Positions 7,491-51,465 of a DNA stretch of 64,000 nucleotides are shown piece by piece. Each line of letters opens with the position of its first letter. Within the stretch, counting starts at the first letter, position 1. The notes below the pieces were generated by a model. That model did no database searches and was not told where the DNA came from. It was given only the letters and a program-made list of their open reading frames with translations. The DNA comes from Rhizobium rosettiformans (GTDB lineage Bacteria > Pseudomonadota > Alphaproteobacteria > Rhizobiales > Rhizobiaceae), in the NCBI RefSeq assembly GCF_016806065.1, contig NZ_CP032405.1:2446001-2510000 (forward strand). The letters run 5' to 3'. Both the position numbers and the translations under genes were made by a program.

Positions 7491-8756
7491 ATGACGACTG
7501 ACAGCGTGACCATCCTCCCGCCCGCCCATGCCCTGACCGGCAAGGTGAGCCCTCCGGGTTCGAAATCCATCACCAACCGTGCGCTTCTCTTGGCAGGCCT
7601 CGCCAAGGGCACCAGCCGCCTGACCGGCGCGCTGAAGAGCGACGACACCCGCTATATGGCCGAAGCGCTCCGCCAGATGGGCGTCACCGTCGAGGAGCCT
7701 GACGCCACCACCTTCGTCGTCACCAGCACGGGCGAGTTGAAGTCGCCAGCAGAACCGCTCTTCCTTGGCAACGCCGGCACCGCCACCCGCTTTCTCACCG
7801 CGGCCCTCGCGCTGGGCAAGGGCCGCTACGTCGTTGACGGCGATGAACACATGCGCAAGCGGCCGATCAAGCCGCTGGTCGAGGCGCTGCAGTCGCTCGG
7901 CGTGGCCATCGCCGCGCCCTCGGGGTGCCCGCCGGTCGCGATCGACGCCAATGGCGCCTTCAAGAAAAACCACGTCATCATCGATGCCGGCCTGTCGAGC
8001 CAGTATGTCTCGGCCCTGCAGATGGCAGCTGCCTGCGGTTCCGAGCCGTTCACCATCGAGCTTGCCGGTGCCGATATCGGCGCCCGCGGTTACATCGATC
8101 TGACGTTGTCGGCCATGCGTGCTTTCGGTGCCAAGGTCGAGCAACCGACGCCATCATCCTGGGTCATCCAGCCCACCGGTTATACCGCGACCGATTTTCA
8201 CATCGAGCCCGATGCCTCTGCCGCCACCTATCTCTGGGGCGCGGAAGTTCTGACCAAGGGCCAGATCGATATCGGCACGCCGTCTGACGCTTTCACCCAG
8301 CCGGACGCCAAGGCCTATGACGTGATCGCCCAGTTCCCGAACATGCCCGCCGTCATCGACGGCAGCCAGATGCAGGATGCGATCCCGACGATTGCCGTGC
8401 TGGCAGCCTTCAACGAGACGCCGGTGCGCTTCGTCGGCATCGAGAACCTCCGCGTCAAGGAATGCGACCGCATCCGCGCCGTCTCGACGGGGCTGAACAA
8501 CATCCGCGAGGGCCTTGCCAAGGAAGAGGGCGACGATCTCCTCGTCTTCTCTGACCCCTCGCTCGCAGGCCAGTCGCTGCCGGCTGACATCGACACCTTC
8601 GCCGATCACCGCATCGCCATGAGCTTTGCACTGGCGGGTCTCAAGATCCGCGACATCACCATCCTCGACCCCGGCTGCGTGGCCAAGACTTATCCCGCTT
8701 ACTGGGATGCGCTCGCCTCACTCGGCGTCGATCTCGTCAGGAACGACCCGAAATGA
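7491..8756 (+). CDS. aroA: 3-phosphoshikimate 1-carboxyvinyltransferase (EPSP synthase), class I-like
   Basis: EPSP synthase transfers the enolpyruvyl group of PEP to shikimate-3-phosphate in aromatic amino acid synthesis. Active-site elements are present: [10 protein letters not shown] (residues 21-30), [10 protein letters not shown] (92-101), [25 protein letters not shown] and GCVAKTYP. The motifs match the E. coli-like class I layout better than the CP4-like class II enzyme usual in Rhizobiaceae, so this may be a second EPSP synthase. Position 101, proline in the E. coli enzyme, is phenylalanine. ATG 7491 is used. The stop overlaps the next start as ATGA, implying translational coupling. 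Confidence 0.9.
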
Positions 8757-47193: not shown

Positions 47194-47504
47194 CTTGACG
47201 CTCTGACGGTACCCGGACTGATTGCTTGAGCTTAACGCAGCATGGTTAATCATGATTTGATGGTATTCTACATCGGCGAGATTTCGCGAGGCTTGCCGCA
47301 GTGCAATTCCGGAGAATGGCCTTGAATCGCCCGTTTGCGCCATGATTTCAGCGGCCGGAAAGATGCCGCCGCCACACCCTTCGGAAAACAATGGGAAATT
47401 CCCGAAATCTCTCCCCTAGATCGCCATCTGTGCGATGTCGCAAACGATTTGGGCCGTGTCGTTCCGCAATGCAGCGCAGCCCTGCGCCCTGTGATTAGAT
47501 GCAG

Positions 47505-47690
47505 GCAAGCTCGAGGTGCTGCCCTGCTAGGGAGGGTGGGAAATCGGGAAGCCGGTCAAAATCCGGCGCTGCCCCCGCAACGGTGGTGGAGAATGCGTTT
47601 TGGCACAAGGCCACTGGGGGCAACCCTGGGAAGGCGCCGACGCGGTCCGCAAATGGACCACTCCTGAGCCCGGAAACCAGCCTCGGCAGA
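47505..47690 (+). ncRNA. Cobalamin (AdoCbl) riboswitch
   Basis: The classical B12-element blocks appear in order. GAGGTGCTGCC comes near the 5' end. Next is GGGAA, then GGTCAAAATCC closed by GCCGG/CCGGC, and the highly conserved B12 box GCTGCCCCCGCAACGG at 47568-47583. Then come CACTGG...CCTGGGAAGGCG and GAGCCCGGAAACCAGCCT at 47665-47682. The aptamer points toward the gbcA-like gene 109 bp downstream. Behind it are two small hairpins (47703-47719 and 47738-47754) that could form the expression platform. No other gene lies between, so GbcAB expression should respond to cobalamin. Confidence 0.92.
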
Positions 47691-47798
47691 CGGACATTTG
47701 AGGTTGCGGAGGGCGACCGGAGATAGCCATGCACACCGCCTTCTTAAGGCGGGCGCTGTGCTCTCTTCTCCCCCGAATTTTTGAAACACGAGGACGAC

Positions 47799-49043
47799 AT
47801 GGACCTGCAGGCCAACGTGCTGCGCCAGCTGAAGAACCGCCGCGAGGGTTTCTCCCTTGAGCAACCATTCTACATCGACCAGGACTATTTCAAGCTCGAC
47901 ATGGAGATGATCTGGTATCGCGACTGGCTGTTCATCGGCCATGACTGCGAGATCCCGCGCGCCGGCAACTATTTCACCGCCCAGATCGGCGACTATCCCG
48001 TCGTCATCGTGCGCGGCAAGGATCAGGTCATCCGGGCCTTCCACAACACCTGTCGCCACCGCGGCCACCGCGTCTGCACCAAGGACAAGGGCGCTGCGGC
48101 GAAGCTCGTCTGCCCTTATCACAACTGGACCTATGACCTTGACGGTTCGCTGGTCTTCGCCCGCCAGATGGGCGAGACTTTCGACAAGGCCGAATTCGGC
48201 CTGAAGACCTTGCATTGCGAAAGCGTCGGCGGCTACATCTTCGTCTGCCTCGCCAATGAGCCTGCCGATTTCGCGCCCGTCCGCGCTTCCATCGAGCCTT
48301 ATCTCCGACCGCATCGCCTCTGGGAAGCCAAGGTCGCCCACAAGAACACGATCATCGAAAAGGGCAACTGGAAGCTCGTCTGGGAAAACAACCGCGAATG
48401 CTACCACTGCGCCGGCAACCATCCGGAGCTCTGCCGTACCTATCCGGAAGCCCCGACTGCAACCGGCGTCCAGGGTGCAGGCGATGATCCGTTCATTTCC
48501 GAGCACTGGGCGCGCTGCGAAGCCGCAGGCCTGCCGTCCACGTTCAACATGGACCCGTCGGGCCAGTTCCGCACCGCCCGCATGCCGCTGATAGAGGATG
48601 CCGAGAGCTACACCATGTCCGGCAAGCGCGCCGTGAAGAAGCCGCTCTCCGCCGATGTGCCGATCAGCCATATCGGCACCATGCTGCTCTTCCACTATCC
48701 GACGACCTGGAACCACATTCTCGGCGACCACGCGATCTCCTTCCGCGTCCTGCCGATCTCGGCGGAGGAAACCGCCGTCACCACCACCTGGCTGGTCAAC
48801 AAGGATGCGGTCGAAGGCGTCGATTACGACTTGGAAGAGCTGACCCATGTCTGGAACATGACCAACGACCAGGACCGCTCGATCGTTGAAGAGAACGCCT
48901 TTGGTATCCGCTCGCCGGCCTATGAGCCCGGTCCCTATTCCGTCGATCACGAAGGTGGCGTCATGCAGTTCGTCGAATGGTATTCCAACTTCATGATGGG
49001 CCGCCTGCAGGGCGACAAGGCCCGCCTGTCCGTGGTGGCGTGA
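47799..49043 (+). CDS. gbcA: Rieske oxygenase, glycine betaine demethylase-like (GbcA-like)
   Basis: The 414-residue terminal oxygenase has a Rieske [2Fe-2S] site, C85-R-H87 and C105-x-x-H108. The mononuclear iron site holds H203-x4-H208 (NRECYHCAGNHPEL). The middle and C-terminal regions (NRECYHC..., TNDQDRSIVEEN, YEPGPYS) match GbcA, which demethylates glycine betaine to dimethylglycine plus formaldehyde. Stachydrine- and carnitine-type Rieske demethylases are close relatives and cannot be excluded. ATG 47799 has GAGG five bases upstream. It is the first gene behind the cobalamin riboswitch and is followed 1 bp later by its reductase. Confidence 0.88.
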   Translation: MDLQANVLRQLKNRREGFSLEQPFYIDQDYFKLDMEMIWYRDWLFIGHDCEIPRAGNYFTAQIGDYPVVIVRGKDQVIRAFHNTCRHRGHRVCTKDKGAAAKLVCPYHNWTYDLDGSLVFARQMGETFDKAEFGLKTLHCESVGGYIFVCLANEPADFAPVRASIEPYLRPHRLWEAKVAHKNTIIEKGNWKLVWENNRECYHCAGNHPELCRTYPEAPTATGVQGAGDDPFISEHWARCEAAGLPSTFNMDPSGQFRTARMPLIEDAESYTMSGKRAVKKPLSADVPISHIGTMLLFHYPTTWNHILGDHAISFRVLPISAEETAVTTTWLVNKDAVEGVDYDLEELTHVWNMTNDQDRSIVEENAFGIRSPAYEPGPYSVDHEGGVMQFVEWYSNFMMGRLQGDKARLSVVA

Positions 49044-49044
49044 G

Positions 49045-50130
49045 ATGAACATCGCCGTCACCCAGTATCGCCATGTCGATGAGATGCGCCCCTGGTCCGA
49101 CCGAGAGCATCTCTTGGAATGCGTCGCCGTCACGCCGGAAGCTGCCGACGTGATGACCTTCACCTTCAAGCCGAACAAGCCGGGCCTCTGGTTCCGTTAT
49201 CTGCCCGGCCAGTTCGTGACGCTCGAGATCCCCGTCGGGCCAGAGCCGGTCATGCGCACCTACACGCTCTCCTCCAGCCCCTCGCGTCCCTATACTGTGG
49301 CCGTGACTGTCAAGGCGCAGAAGGAGAGCATCGGCACCCGCTGGATGCTCGACAATCTGAAGCCCGGCATGGCGCTGAAGGCCTTCGGCCCGCTCGGCGA
49401 CTTCTCCTATGCCAAGTATCCGGGCAAAAAGTATCTGTTCATTTCGGCCGGCTCCGGCATCACGCCGATGATGTCGATGACCCGTGATCTGAGCGACCGT
49501 GCGCCCGACAGCGACATCACCTTCCTCAACTGTGCTCGTTCGCCCGACGATATCATCTTCCGCTGGGAGCTGGAGGCCAAGGCACGTGATATGCCGAACT
49601 TCCAGCTCGGCTTCATCATTGAGCAACTGGGGCGCGGCCAGCTCTGGTCTGGCCTGAAGGGCCGCATCGACAAGGCGAAGATCGCGCTACTCGCCCCAGA
49701 TTTCCTCGAGCGTACCGTCTTCTGCTGCGGTCCGGCCCCCTTCATGGCGACCGTGCGCGAGGCGCTGGAAGGGGCAGGCTTCGACATGAAGCAGTATCAT
49801 GAGGAGGCCTTCCAGCCGGTCAAGTCCGAGCCCTTGGTCGTGGTCGCTGACCATGCCGATGGCGAGCAGGCCACCAAGGTCACCTTCGCCATGTCGGGCA
49901 AGGACGGCCTCTGCGCTCCCGGTCATACGGTTCTGCAGGCGGCCCGCGCCGCCGGTGTCCGCATCGGCGCTGCCTGCGAATCTGGCCTTTGCGGCACCTG
50001 CAAGGTCATGAAGCTCTCGGGCGAAGTCGAGATGGACCACAATGGCGGCATCCTCGATGACGAGATCGACGAGGGCTACATCCTCGCCTGCTGTTCGCGG
50101 CCGAAGGGCGATATTGAGATCGAAGCCTAA
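49045..50130 (+). CDS. gbcB: Ferredoxin-NAD(P) reductase partner of the Rieske oxygenase (GbcB-like)
   Basis: The 361-residue electron-transfer subunit has a flavin domain (RTYTLSS, residues 71-77) and an NAD(P)H domain (LFISAGSGITPMMSM; FCCGPAPFM). A C-terminal plant-type [2Fe-2S] ferredoxin carries C311-x4-C316-x2-C319 and a final cysteine at 349/350. It passes electrons from NAD(P)H to the oxygenase. The gene starts 1 bp after the gbcA-like stop, so the two are expressed together under the riboswitch. The order and fusion type match GbcB. Confidence 0.9.
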   Translation: MNIAVTQYRHVDEMRPWSDREHLLECVAVTPEAADVMTFTFKPNKPGLWFRYLPGQFVTLEIPVGPEPVMRTYTLSSSPSRPYTVAVTVKAQKESIGTRWMLDNLKPGMALKAFGPLGDFSYAKYPGKKYLFISAGSGITPMMSMTRDLSDRAPDSDITFLNCARSPDDIIFRWELEAKARDMPNFQLGFIIEQLGRGQLWSGLKGRIDKAKIALLAPDFLERTVFCCGPAPFMATVREALEGAGFDMKQYHEEAFQPVKSEPLVVVADHADGEQATKVTFAMSGKDGLCAPGHTVLQAARAAGVRIGAACESGLCGTCKVMKLSGEVEMDHNGGILDDEIDEGYILACCSRPKGDIEIEA

Positions 50131-50355: not shown

Positions 50356-50775
50356 ATGAAGCTTGTCTCTGCTTTCGCCGTCGCATGCCTGGCTTTGGCC
50401 GGGGTCATGACATCCGGGACCGACGTCCGCGCCGGCGGCATCGAAGTCCGCATCTATCAAAGCCATACCAGCTACCGTCACTACGAGCGCGTGACAGTCT
50501 ACTCGCGCCACCACGTCTATCGTGGCCATGGGCACCGGCTGCATCGGCCGGGCTATGTCTATCGCAACGGGCTCTGGTTCTCGCCGCGCTCTATGCGAGC
50601 CGGCGTGATTGTCGACAGGCCGGTGCCGCGCCGCCACGTCGTGCAATATAGTGCGGGCATCAACCCGAAGCACTACAGCTGGTGCGCCGAACGCTACCGC
50701 TCCTATCACTGGCGCAGCAACAGCTTCCAGCCGTATCACGGGCCGCGCCGGACCTGCCTGTCACCCTATTACTGA
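50356..50775 (+). CDS. BA14K family secreted protein (copy 1)
   Basis: The 139-residue protein has a signal peptide of about 24 residues. A His/Arg/Tyr-rich middle is followed by the C-terminal BA14K block HYSWCAERYRSYHWRS, then SFQPYHGPRRTCLSPYY. BA14K proteins are known as lectin-like immunoreactive envelope proteins in Brucella and relatives. GGGGG precedes ATG 50356. A paralogue follows 207 bp downstream with nearly the same C-terminus. Confidence 0.83.
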   Translation: MKLVSAFAVACLALAGVMTSGTDVRAGGIEVRIYQSHTSYRHYERVTVYSRHHVYRGHGHRLHRPGYVYRNGLWFSPRSMRAGVIVDRPVPRRHVVQYSAGINPKHYSWCAERYRSYHWRSNSFQPYHGPRRTCLSPYY

Positions 50776-50982: not shown

Positions 50983-51465
50983 ATGAAGACTGCATTGAAG
51001 ACGACCGCCGTGGCAGCACTCGCGTCCATCATGGCAATTACAGGCATGATCCCGGCCCAGGCCCAGGTCATCCGCCCGGTCGCGTCGATCGCGTCCACCA
51101 CAGATGCCACCAATGTTCAGTACCGAGATCGCTACGATCGTCGTTATGACCGCCGTGTCGACCGTCGCATCGATCGCTACGAGCGCGCCCGCTACTACAA
51201 TGGCCATCGTGGCTATCGTGAGCGCCGCGCCGGCTACCGTTACCACAACGGTTACTGGTATCCGCTCGCAGCCTTTGCGGCCGGTGCGATCATCGGCGGC
51301 GCGATTGCCCAGCCGCGTCCGGCCCCCGTCGCGCCACGCGCAGCCGGTCTCAACCCGCGCCACTACGACTGGTGCAATGCCCGCTACCGCTCCTACGATA
51401 GCCGCTCGAACACCTTCCAGCCGTATAACGGCCCCCGTCAGCAGTGCCTGTCGCCCTATTATTGA
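50983..51465 (+). CDS. BA14K family secreted protein (copy 2)
   Basis: The 160-residue protein has a signal peptide (about 27 residues, ending IPAQAQ). A striking Arg/Asp/Tyr-rich segment follows (about 48-90, [20 protein letters not shown]). A glycine/alanine hydrophobic stretch ([15 protein letters not shown]) leads to the C-terminal BA14K block [16 protein letters not shown], then [25 protein letters not shown] precedes the ATG. The tandem copy upstream shares the last ~35 residues. Terminators follow directly. Confidence 0.87.

Follow-up and report, generated by a model that had tools for sequence, protein, structure and literature searches.

A cobalamin riboswitch precedes an operon for a Rieske oxygenase and its reductase in Rhizobium rosettiformans, within the 64,000 nucleotides (nt) of contig NZ_CP032405.1 analyzed here (positions 2,446,001 to 2,510,000, hereafter the window). 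This riboswitch likely shuts the oxygenase operon when vitamin B12 (cobalamin) is plentiful, and the oxygenase, a predicted O2-dependent betaine-type demethylase, would be made mainly when the predicted corrinoid-dependent demethylase set MtgB-MtgC-MtgD lacks its cofactor. Comparative genomics strongly supports the reading of the oxygenase as a B12-independent isozyme. The broader proposition, which we consider probable, is that across Hyphomicrobiales a cobalamin riboswitch determines which of two unrelated chemistries handles a given betaine methyl group, the aptamer being a removable module between a conserved activator site and the gene that decays whenever the B12 route is lost.

According to the proposed mechanism, both routes would share a substrate, which family membership suggests to be glycine betaine or a close quaternary amine. 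With B12 available, the aptamer bound to adenosylcobalamin would presumably repress the operon, and the methyl group would pass to tetrahydrofolate (THF) via MtgBCD. At low B12, the gate would be open and the Rieske oxygenase made as a substitute for the Mtg route; the methyl group would then be released as formaldehyde, with O2 and NADH consumed. A second input would come through an ArgR/GbdR-type operator further upstream.

The riboswitch and its operon

In an Rfam scan of the whole window, Cobalamin (RF00174) was the sole family matching at or above its gathering score. The aptamer lies at 47497-47699 on the forward strand (98.3 bits, E 2.6e-23, gathering threshold 31.5) and aligns to model positions 1-189 of 189. 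The original prediction, made from the letters and open reading frames of the window, had described a nearly complete aptamer in front of a GbcA/GbcB-like operon; the covariance model bears out the element and its placement, and it shows the aptamer to be complete, beginning 8 nt before the start proposed earlier. The sequence contains both the B12 box GCCACTG and the core GCTGCCCCCGCAAC; the core columns are conserved in an alignment of the window with 15 relatives. A family-specific model (R1, trained on the window and 15 loci) scores the window aptamer at 221 bits, the window being one of its 16 training rows. The ligand is presumably adenosylcobalamin.

The aptamer ends 99 nt before the oxygenase gene (47799-49043, forward strand), which starts with the ATG at 47799 after the Shine-Dalgarno sequence GAGGA and encodes 414 amino acids (aa). 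After a gap of 1 nt follows the gene for the reductase (49045-50130, forward strand, 361 aa), so that oxygenase and reductase genes are next to the riboswitch on its strand. Assignment of the riboswitch to the divergent DUF6656 gene was rejected because that gene lies on the wrong strand. As had been claimed, no cobalamin gene adjoins: the nearest scanned neighbours are a diguanylate-cyclase-like gene, the DUF6656 gene and two BA14K genes. The latter encode two BA14K-family proteins in series directly downstream of the operon (50356-50775 and 50983-51465, Pfam).

Scoring 150 of 365 first-look candidates in the whole genome yielded five cobalamin riboswitches. Downstream of four of them are genes read as having a B12 or cobalt function, namely a CbiM-like transporter gene, a BtuCDF-like ABC transporter (best models under their cut-offs), a nitroreductase-family gene read as BluB, and a cluster with CobN and a gene read as CobW. 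Among the five found, the window riboswitch alone precedes a gene without a B12 or cobalt role.

Elsewhere, the genome encodes a predicted corrinoid-dependent betaine-demethylase set of the Mtg type (C1:3590451-3601707). Based on Pfam, this cluster comprises one of the three MttB-family proteins of the genome (PF06253), a stand-alone corrinoid protein (PF02310/PF02607), a DUF1638 protein, a methylene-THF reductase pair, a pterin-binding methyltransferase (PF00809) and a RACo-type corrinoid activator; proteins of the MtgB, MtgC, MtgD and RACo types are all encoded in the genome. The cluster matches the gene set of the aerobic cobalamin-dependent glycine betaine demethylase MtgBCD of Ruegeria, as described in the available text of Mausz et al. 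2025 (PMC12478193). The genome also contains a frame of MetH size (1257 aa). Two homocysteine methyltransferase-family proteins were seen in addition: one (PF02574, 327-aa frame) at C1:2516980-2517861, about 7 kb beyond the window end, is a candidate MtgE/Bmt, and a second of the PF02574 type lies at C1:3519456-3520292.

Co-occurrence of riboswitch and Mtg set in relatives

If the riboswitch controls a stand-in for the Mtg route, it is expected only where that route exists. In order to compare the two traits among near relatives, we used 80 gbcA loci, one per genome, which ranked best among 587 confirmed stretches. Locus L048, with 41 bp of upstream sequence, was excluded from the riboswitch counts, and the 79 testable loci were all scanned with Rfam. 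MtgC was searched in each of the 80 whole genomes, and MtgB was scored by PF06253 with E up to 1e-50.

MtgC was found in 46/80 genomes at 88-99% identity and was absent from the other 34, where the MtgC query matched best to a corrinoid domain, about 35% identical, within a MetH-sized frame. MtgB occurred in exactly the same 46 genomes and in none of the remaining 34. RF00174 was detected upstream of gbcA in 41/45 testable loci with the Mtg set (Mtg-positive) and in 0/34 loci without it (Mtg-negative), which also speaks against the possibility, raised with the original prediction, that the element precedes a different gene in all relatives. Model R1 yields the same division, a result that is circular for its training rows.

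The wider survey covered 297 genomes of the order with thresholds of E <= 1e-100 for GbcA and E <= 1e-40 for MtgC. GbcA was matched in 64/297 genomes, including that of the window, and MtgC in 29 of the other 63. We analyzed the best 40 of 73 GbcA places outside the window, of which L099 was dropped as the same locus as L075, leaving 39; Mtg status was set here by MtgC alone, and genomes G216 and G310 contribute two rows each. The riboswitch lies upstream in 19/26 loci from MtgC-positive genomes and in 0/13 from MtgC-negative genomes. Pooling near relatives, window and wider loci gives 61/72 Mtg-positive against 0/47 Mtg-negative loci; the latter count rests on Rfam for 34 near relatives and 11 of the 13 wider loci, and on model R1 only for L137 and L138.

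That GbcAB serves as a B12-independent alternative to a corrinoid route had originally been proposed by analogy with MetE and MetH; the Mtg-type set of this genome and the co-occurrence support this proposal. Further support comes from what stays behind in genomes without the Mtg route: the aptamer is absent or apparently decayed there, while the oxygenase, the operator-like repeat (37/38 loci without riboswitch) and a MetH-sized corrinoid protein (34/34 Mtg-negative genomes) are kept.

These distributions also bear on the idea that the operon serves B12 supply, in which low B12 would direct betaine to glycine and one-carbon units for the synthesis of 5-aminolevulinate, S-adenosylmethionine and corrin, the riboswitch exerting ordinary feedback. 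The B12 or cobalt genes behind the other four riboswitches of the genome are in favour of it, and betaine has a known use as an additive in fermentations for B12. This explanation predicts, however, that the riboswitch is kept wherever gbcAB and B12 synthesis are kept, whereas it is absent in all 34 Mtg-negative relatives. Moreover, the MtgC-negative genomes G101, G249 and G334 of the same family hold four to five other cobalamin riboswitches each among the matches listed, none before gbcA, with B12 synthesis itself not scored there. We consider a supply role very improbable.

Some loci carried further elements. In L046, a second full cobalamin riboswitch (7760-7968, reverse strand, 106.4 bits) is encoded opposite to the oxygenase gene, about 1.5 kb beyond its end. 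A divergent second cobalamin riboswitch stands back to back with the gbcA riboswitch in L112 (3020-3200; G216:C22:211688-211885) and in L118 (92-323; G137:C22:51413-51617). One record, L032, is titled MAG (metagenome-assembled genome) Arenimonas sp., but its gbcAB genes group inside Ciceribacter in the tree, probably owing to a binning or naming error.

Probable decay of the aptamer

Two Mtg-negative loci hold probable relics of the aptamer at the same spot. The leader of Rhizobium lusitanum (L049) aligns on both sides with that of its Mtg-positive sister L047, and about 104 nt of the aptamer core are missing; the missing part includes CCCCCGCAAC and the B12 box, while the region of the hairpin that follows the aptamer is retained in altered form. 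In L050, a degraded-looking aptamer of 122 nt scores 26.4 bits with model R1 and falls below the Rfam threshold. Elsewhere, the leader is shorter by about one aptamer where the riboswitch is absent: the median distance from the upstream operator-like repeat to the start codon is 160 nt in 37 loci without the riboswitch and 366 nt in 34 loci with it.

On a tree of gbcAB DNA with 81 rows, we counted five changes of MtgC and six of the riboswitch. All five Mtg-negative clades of this tree lack the aptamer, and in random pairs on independent paths riboswitch and MtgC never change in opposite directions.

A Pagel-type test prefers dependent over independent evolution (log-likelihood -46.9 vs -62.5, likelihood ratio 31.3, p 2.6e-6, 4 degrees of freedom).

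Weighing the evidence

Several observations weigh against the isozyme reading; they concern loci without the riboswitch, the phylogenetic tests, the substrates and the expression platform. Regarding the first, the gate is not obligatory, given the Mtg-positive loci that do without it. These are L030 with L034 and L037 with L040, pairs of near relatives which keep MtgBC and the oxygenase, and 7/26 MtgC-positive loci of the wider survey. For the former four, we considered false negatives of the motif search, an explanation that was rejected as Rfam finds no riboswitch there either (one GCCACTG occurs in L040).

The sign test on independent pairs was not significant (median p 0.25 with 80 rows, there being too few pairs), and neither was the pair test on a protein tree of 119 rows with nine MtgC and eleven riboswitch changes (median p 0.0625). 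The Pagel-type fit, in turn, used a gene tree and not a species tree, a quick tree search and a uniform root prior, with several rates at their bounds. Counts, pair test and Pagel-type test were all repeated without the duplicate L099, with the same result. Such small numbers of MtgC changes (five in the 81-row tree, nine in the 119-row tree), together with pair tests that miss 0.05 at the median, speak for the possibility that the association reflects shared ancestry, a few lineages having lost both traits by chance without a functional link. The preference for the dependent model argues against it, as do the absence of the aptamer from each of the five Mtg-negative clades and from all Mtg-negative loci of the pooled set, and the core deletion in L049 beside an intact Mtg-positive sister. 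To shared ancestry alone we give the least credence of all the explanations considered.

As for the substrate, PF00355 (Rieske) and PF00848 (Ring_hydroxyl_A) exceed their Pfam cut-offs in the oxygenase, which is the only close homologue found in the genome, and the reductase contains FAD, NAD and 2Fe-2S domains (Pfam). Among NCBIfam models, GbcA and GbcB are the best for the two proteins, with homology along nearly the whole length. Both curated cut-offs are missed, however: the oxygenase reaches 507.3 bits with NF058607 (cut-off 670) and the reductase 381.7 bits with NF058606 (cut-off 500). Similarly, the NCBIfam MtgC models NF047996 and NF047995 gave 211.6 and 179.6 bits, under their cut-offs of 370 and 310, which is why we name the corrinoid cluster "Mtg-type".

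The nearest solved structures to the oxygenase are 3n0q, 3vca and 4qup. Of these, 3vca is Stc2, the stachydrine demethylase (the PDB entry itself reads ring-hydroxylating dioxygenase). Identity is 55-56% to 3vca and 3n0q (55% for Stc2) and about 46% to three proteins passing the GbcA cut-off. In a reference tree of 50 oxygenase rows, from which the empty row L146 was excluded, 16 of the 19 riboswitch-led proteins, including that of the window, share one clade with unswitched relatives. Its sister group is the Stc2/3n0q clade, and the proteins over the GbcA cut-off stand apart from it; L120, L121 and L129, the remaining riboswitch-led proteins, fall inside the Stc2/3n0q clade. By family, the oxygenase is predicted to be a quaternary-ammonium Rieske demethylase, with its substrate assignment a prediction only. 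Since the enzyme is closer to Stc2/3n0q than to proteins over the GbcA cut-off, "betaine-type" is to be understood broadly.

The oxygenase might act on a different substrate from MtgB, for instance stachydrine only, and B12 control might concern another partner, such as a second MttB-family protein beside an old-yellow-enzyme gene. Such a gene pair exists about 68 kb from the window oxygenase (L011:9974-13574; C1:2422675-2426275), where a further MttB-family gene is followed by a gene for an old-yellow-enzyme-type flavoenzyme; a divergent gene upstream is read as LysR-type, and the pair could possibly be a corrinoid route for proline betaine. The higher identity to Stc2 and the three riboswitch-led proteins in the Stc2/3n0q clade point in the same direction. 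Against this stand the 11 genomes with a single MttB-family protein, located beside mtgC: nine keep the riboswitch (G008, G012, G014, G031, G032, G039, G054, G055 and G065) and two lack it (G010 and G013), which makes a partner other than the core MtgB less likely. Overall, we regard another substrate and partner as unlikely; only the second clause, the other partner, excludes the gate opposite MtgB-MtgC-MtgD, and the probabilities of the two overlap.

The expression platform is predicted to start with a P13-like hairpin, GGTTGC-GGAGG-GCGACC (47702-47718, forward strand), directly 3' of the aptamer. Its core motif with the loop GGNGG is present in 60/61 riboswitch-bearing loci, including the window, and absent only from L121. 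Outside the search motif, the hairpin's three outer pairs form in 59, 56 and 53 of the 60, with compensatory changes. The Shine-Dalgarno sequence GAGGA of the oxygenase gene (47790-47794, forward strand) is conserved in close relatives, and in several groups it is preceded by a pyrimidine stretch complementary to it. We take translational repression, possibly through sequestration of this site, as the most likely mode of control. On the other side, a single shared sequestrator of the Shine-Dalgarno sequence was seen in some groups only, with no partner in L057, L060 and L096; the best complement pairing in the window does not involve the Shine-Dalgarno site; the predicted folds of the platform do not exceed those of shuffled sequences in stability; and a search for an intrinsic terminator near the aptamer found none. 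No sigma-70 promoter was found near the aptamer either. A partner for the P13 loop GGNGG was sought by eye and dropped, complementarity being seen in some loci only.

These features do not allow the polarity to be read from the sequence with certainty, and activating corrinoid riboswitches have been reported (PMC10653944, in its available text). The riboswitch might then activate the operon with corrinoid, both demethylases being made together at high B12. Co-activation of a B12-free enzyme would bring no obvious benefit, however, and the known isozyme cases are repressed according to the available text of PMC2211319 and PMC9600662. Activation seems very improbable to us.

An operator-like repeat upstream of the riboswitch

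Upstream of the aptamer, at 47436-47462 on the forward strand, lies an operator-like tandem repeat, TGTCGC-N15-TGTCGT, with a period of 21 bp that is conserved across loci. Counting the window and the 79 loci (L048 left out), a TGTCGY-N13-22-TGTCGY pair occurs within 480 bp upstream of gbcA in 71/80 loci compared with 4/1600 Markov resamples. It is present in 34/42 loci with the riboswitch and in 37/38 without, and its spacer measures 15 nt in 69/71 loci. The tandem ArgR boxes of AraC/XylS regulators have the same 21-bp period (PMC10963909, in its available text). These data suggest that an inducer-dependent activator may act together with the B12 gate on the same operon.

The bare pattern is not enriched across the genome (six matches vs five in the control), and the motif was not found before the five mtg-related gene starts of the genome. 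Of the five other genome matches to the exact pattern, the three inspected (L160, L163 and L164) showed no evident gene link.

Comparison with known systems

A cobalamin riboswitch in front of the "likely encoding a dioxygenase" gene smc00982 of Sinorhizobium meliloti was listed in 2007 from Rfam, with no function proposed in the available text of the sources (PMC2573895, PMC2848018, PMC2245857). This leader possibly has the same arrangement as the window. If smc00982 is the orthologue, our results bear on a second system for betaine degradation in S. meliloti, discussed in PMC12478193 (available text). The same paper describes MtgBCD, the matching gene set of which in the window genome we propose as the partner of the switch. 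Its available text links no riboswitch to GbcAB, and the word "riboswitch" occurs there once, in a reference title. In the open-licence literature, supplements excluded, we found no paper linking a cobalamin riboswitch to a Rieske betaine demethylase/GbcAB or to Mtg.

Like GbcAB of Pseudomonas and Chromohalobacter, the operon of the window pairs a Rieske oxygenase with a flavin/2Fe-2S reductase. Unlike them, its proteins score below the equivalog cut-offs, belong to a separate clade and are riboswitch-led. With Stc2 (3vca), the oxygenase shares the quaternary-amine Rieske family at the identity given above, but it belongs to the sister clade of Stc2/3n0q.

If the proposed gate is true, riboswitch-gated B12-independent isozymes such as MetE would reach into the catabolism of a common osmolyte in plant-associated and environmental Alphaproteobacteria, and B12 supply would be tied to what becomes of betaine carbon (methyl-THF or formaldehyde) as well as to O2 use. 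The pattern of joint loss amounts to a natural genetic test of function. It also suggests a general method, in which genes that are riboswitch-led only alongside a given corrinoid enzyme become candidate B12-independent substitutes.

Cobalamin riboswitches before B12-independent isozymes are known (PMC2211319, PMC3766115, PMC9600662, available text). The metE riboswitch in genomes with MetH resembles the case of the window most directly: a riboswitch of the same family gates a B12-free enzyme beside a B12-dependent one (PMC2211319, PMC9600662, available text). In contrast to metE, the gated enzyme of the window is catabolic and requires O2, and its predicted product is formaldehyde rather than methyl-THF. 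What would be new here is the application of the known isozyme-gating principle to a catabolic, O2-dependent substitute for a corrinoid methyltransferase.

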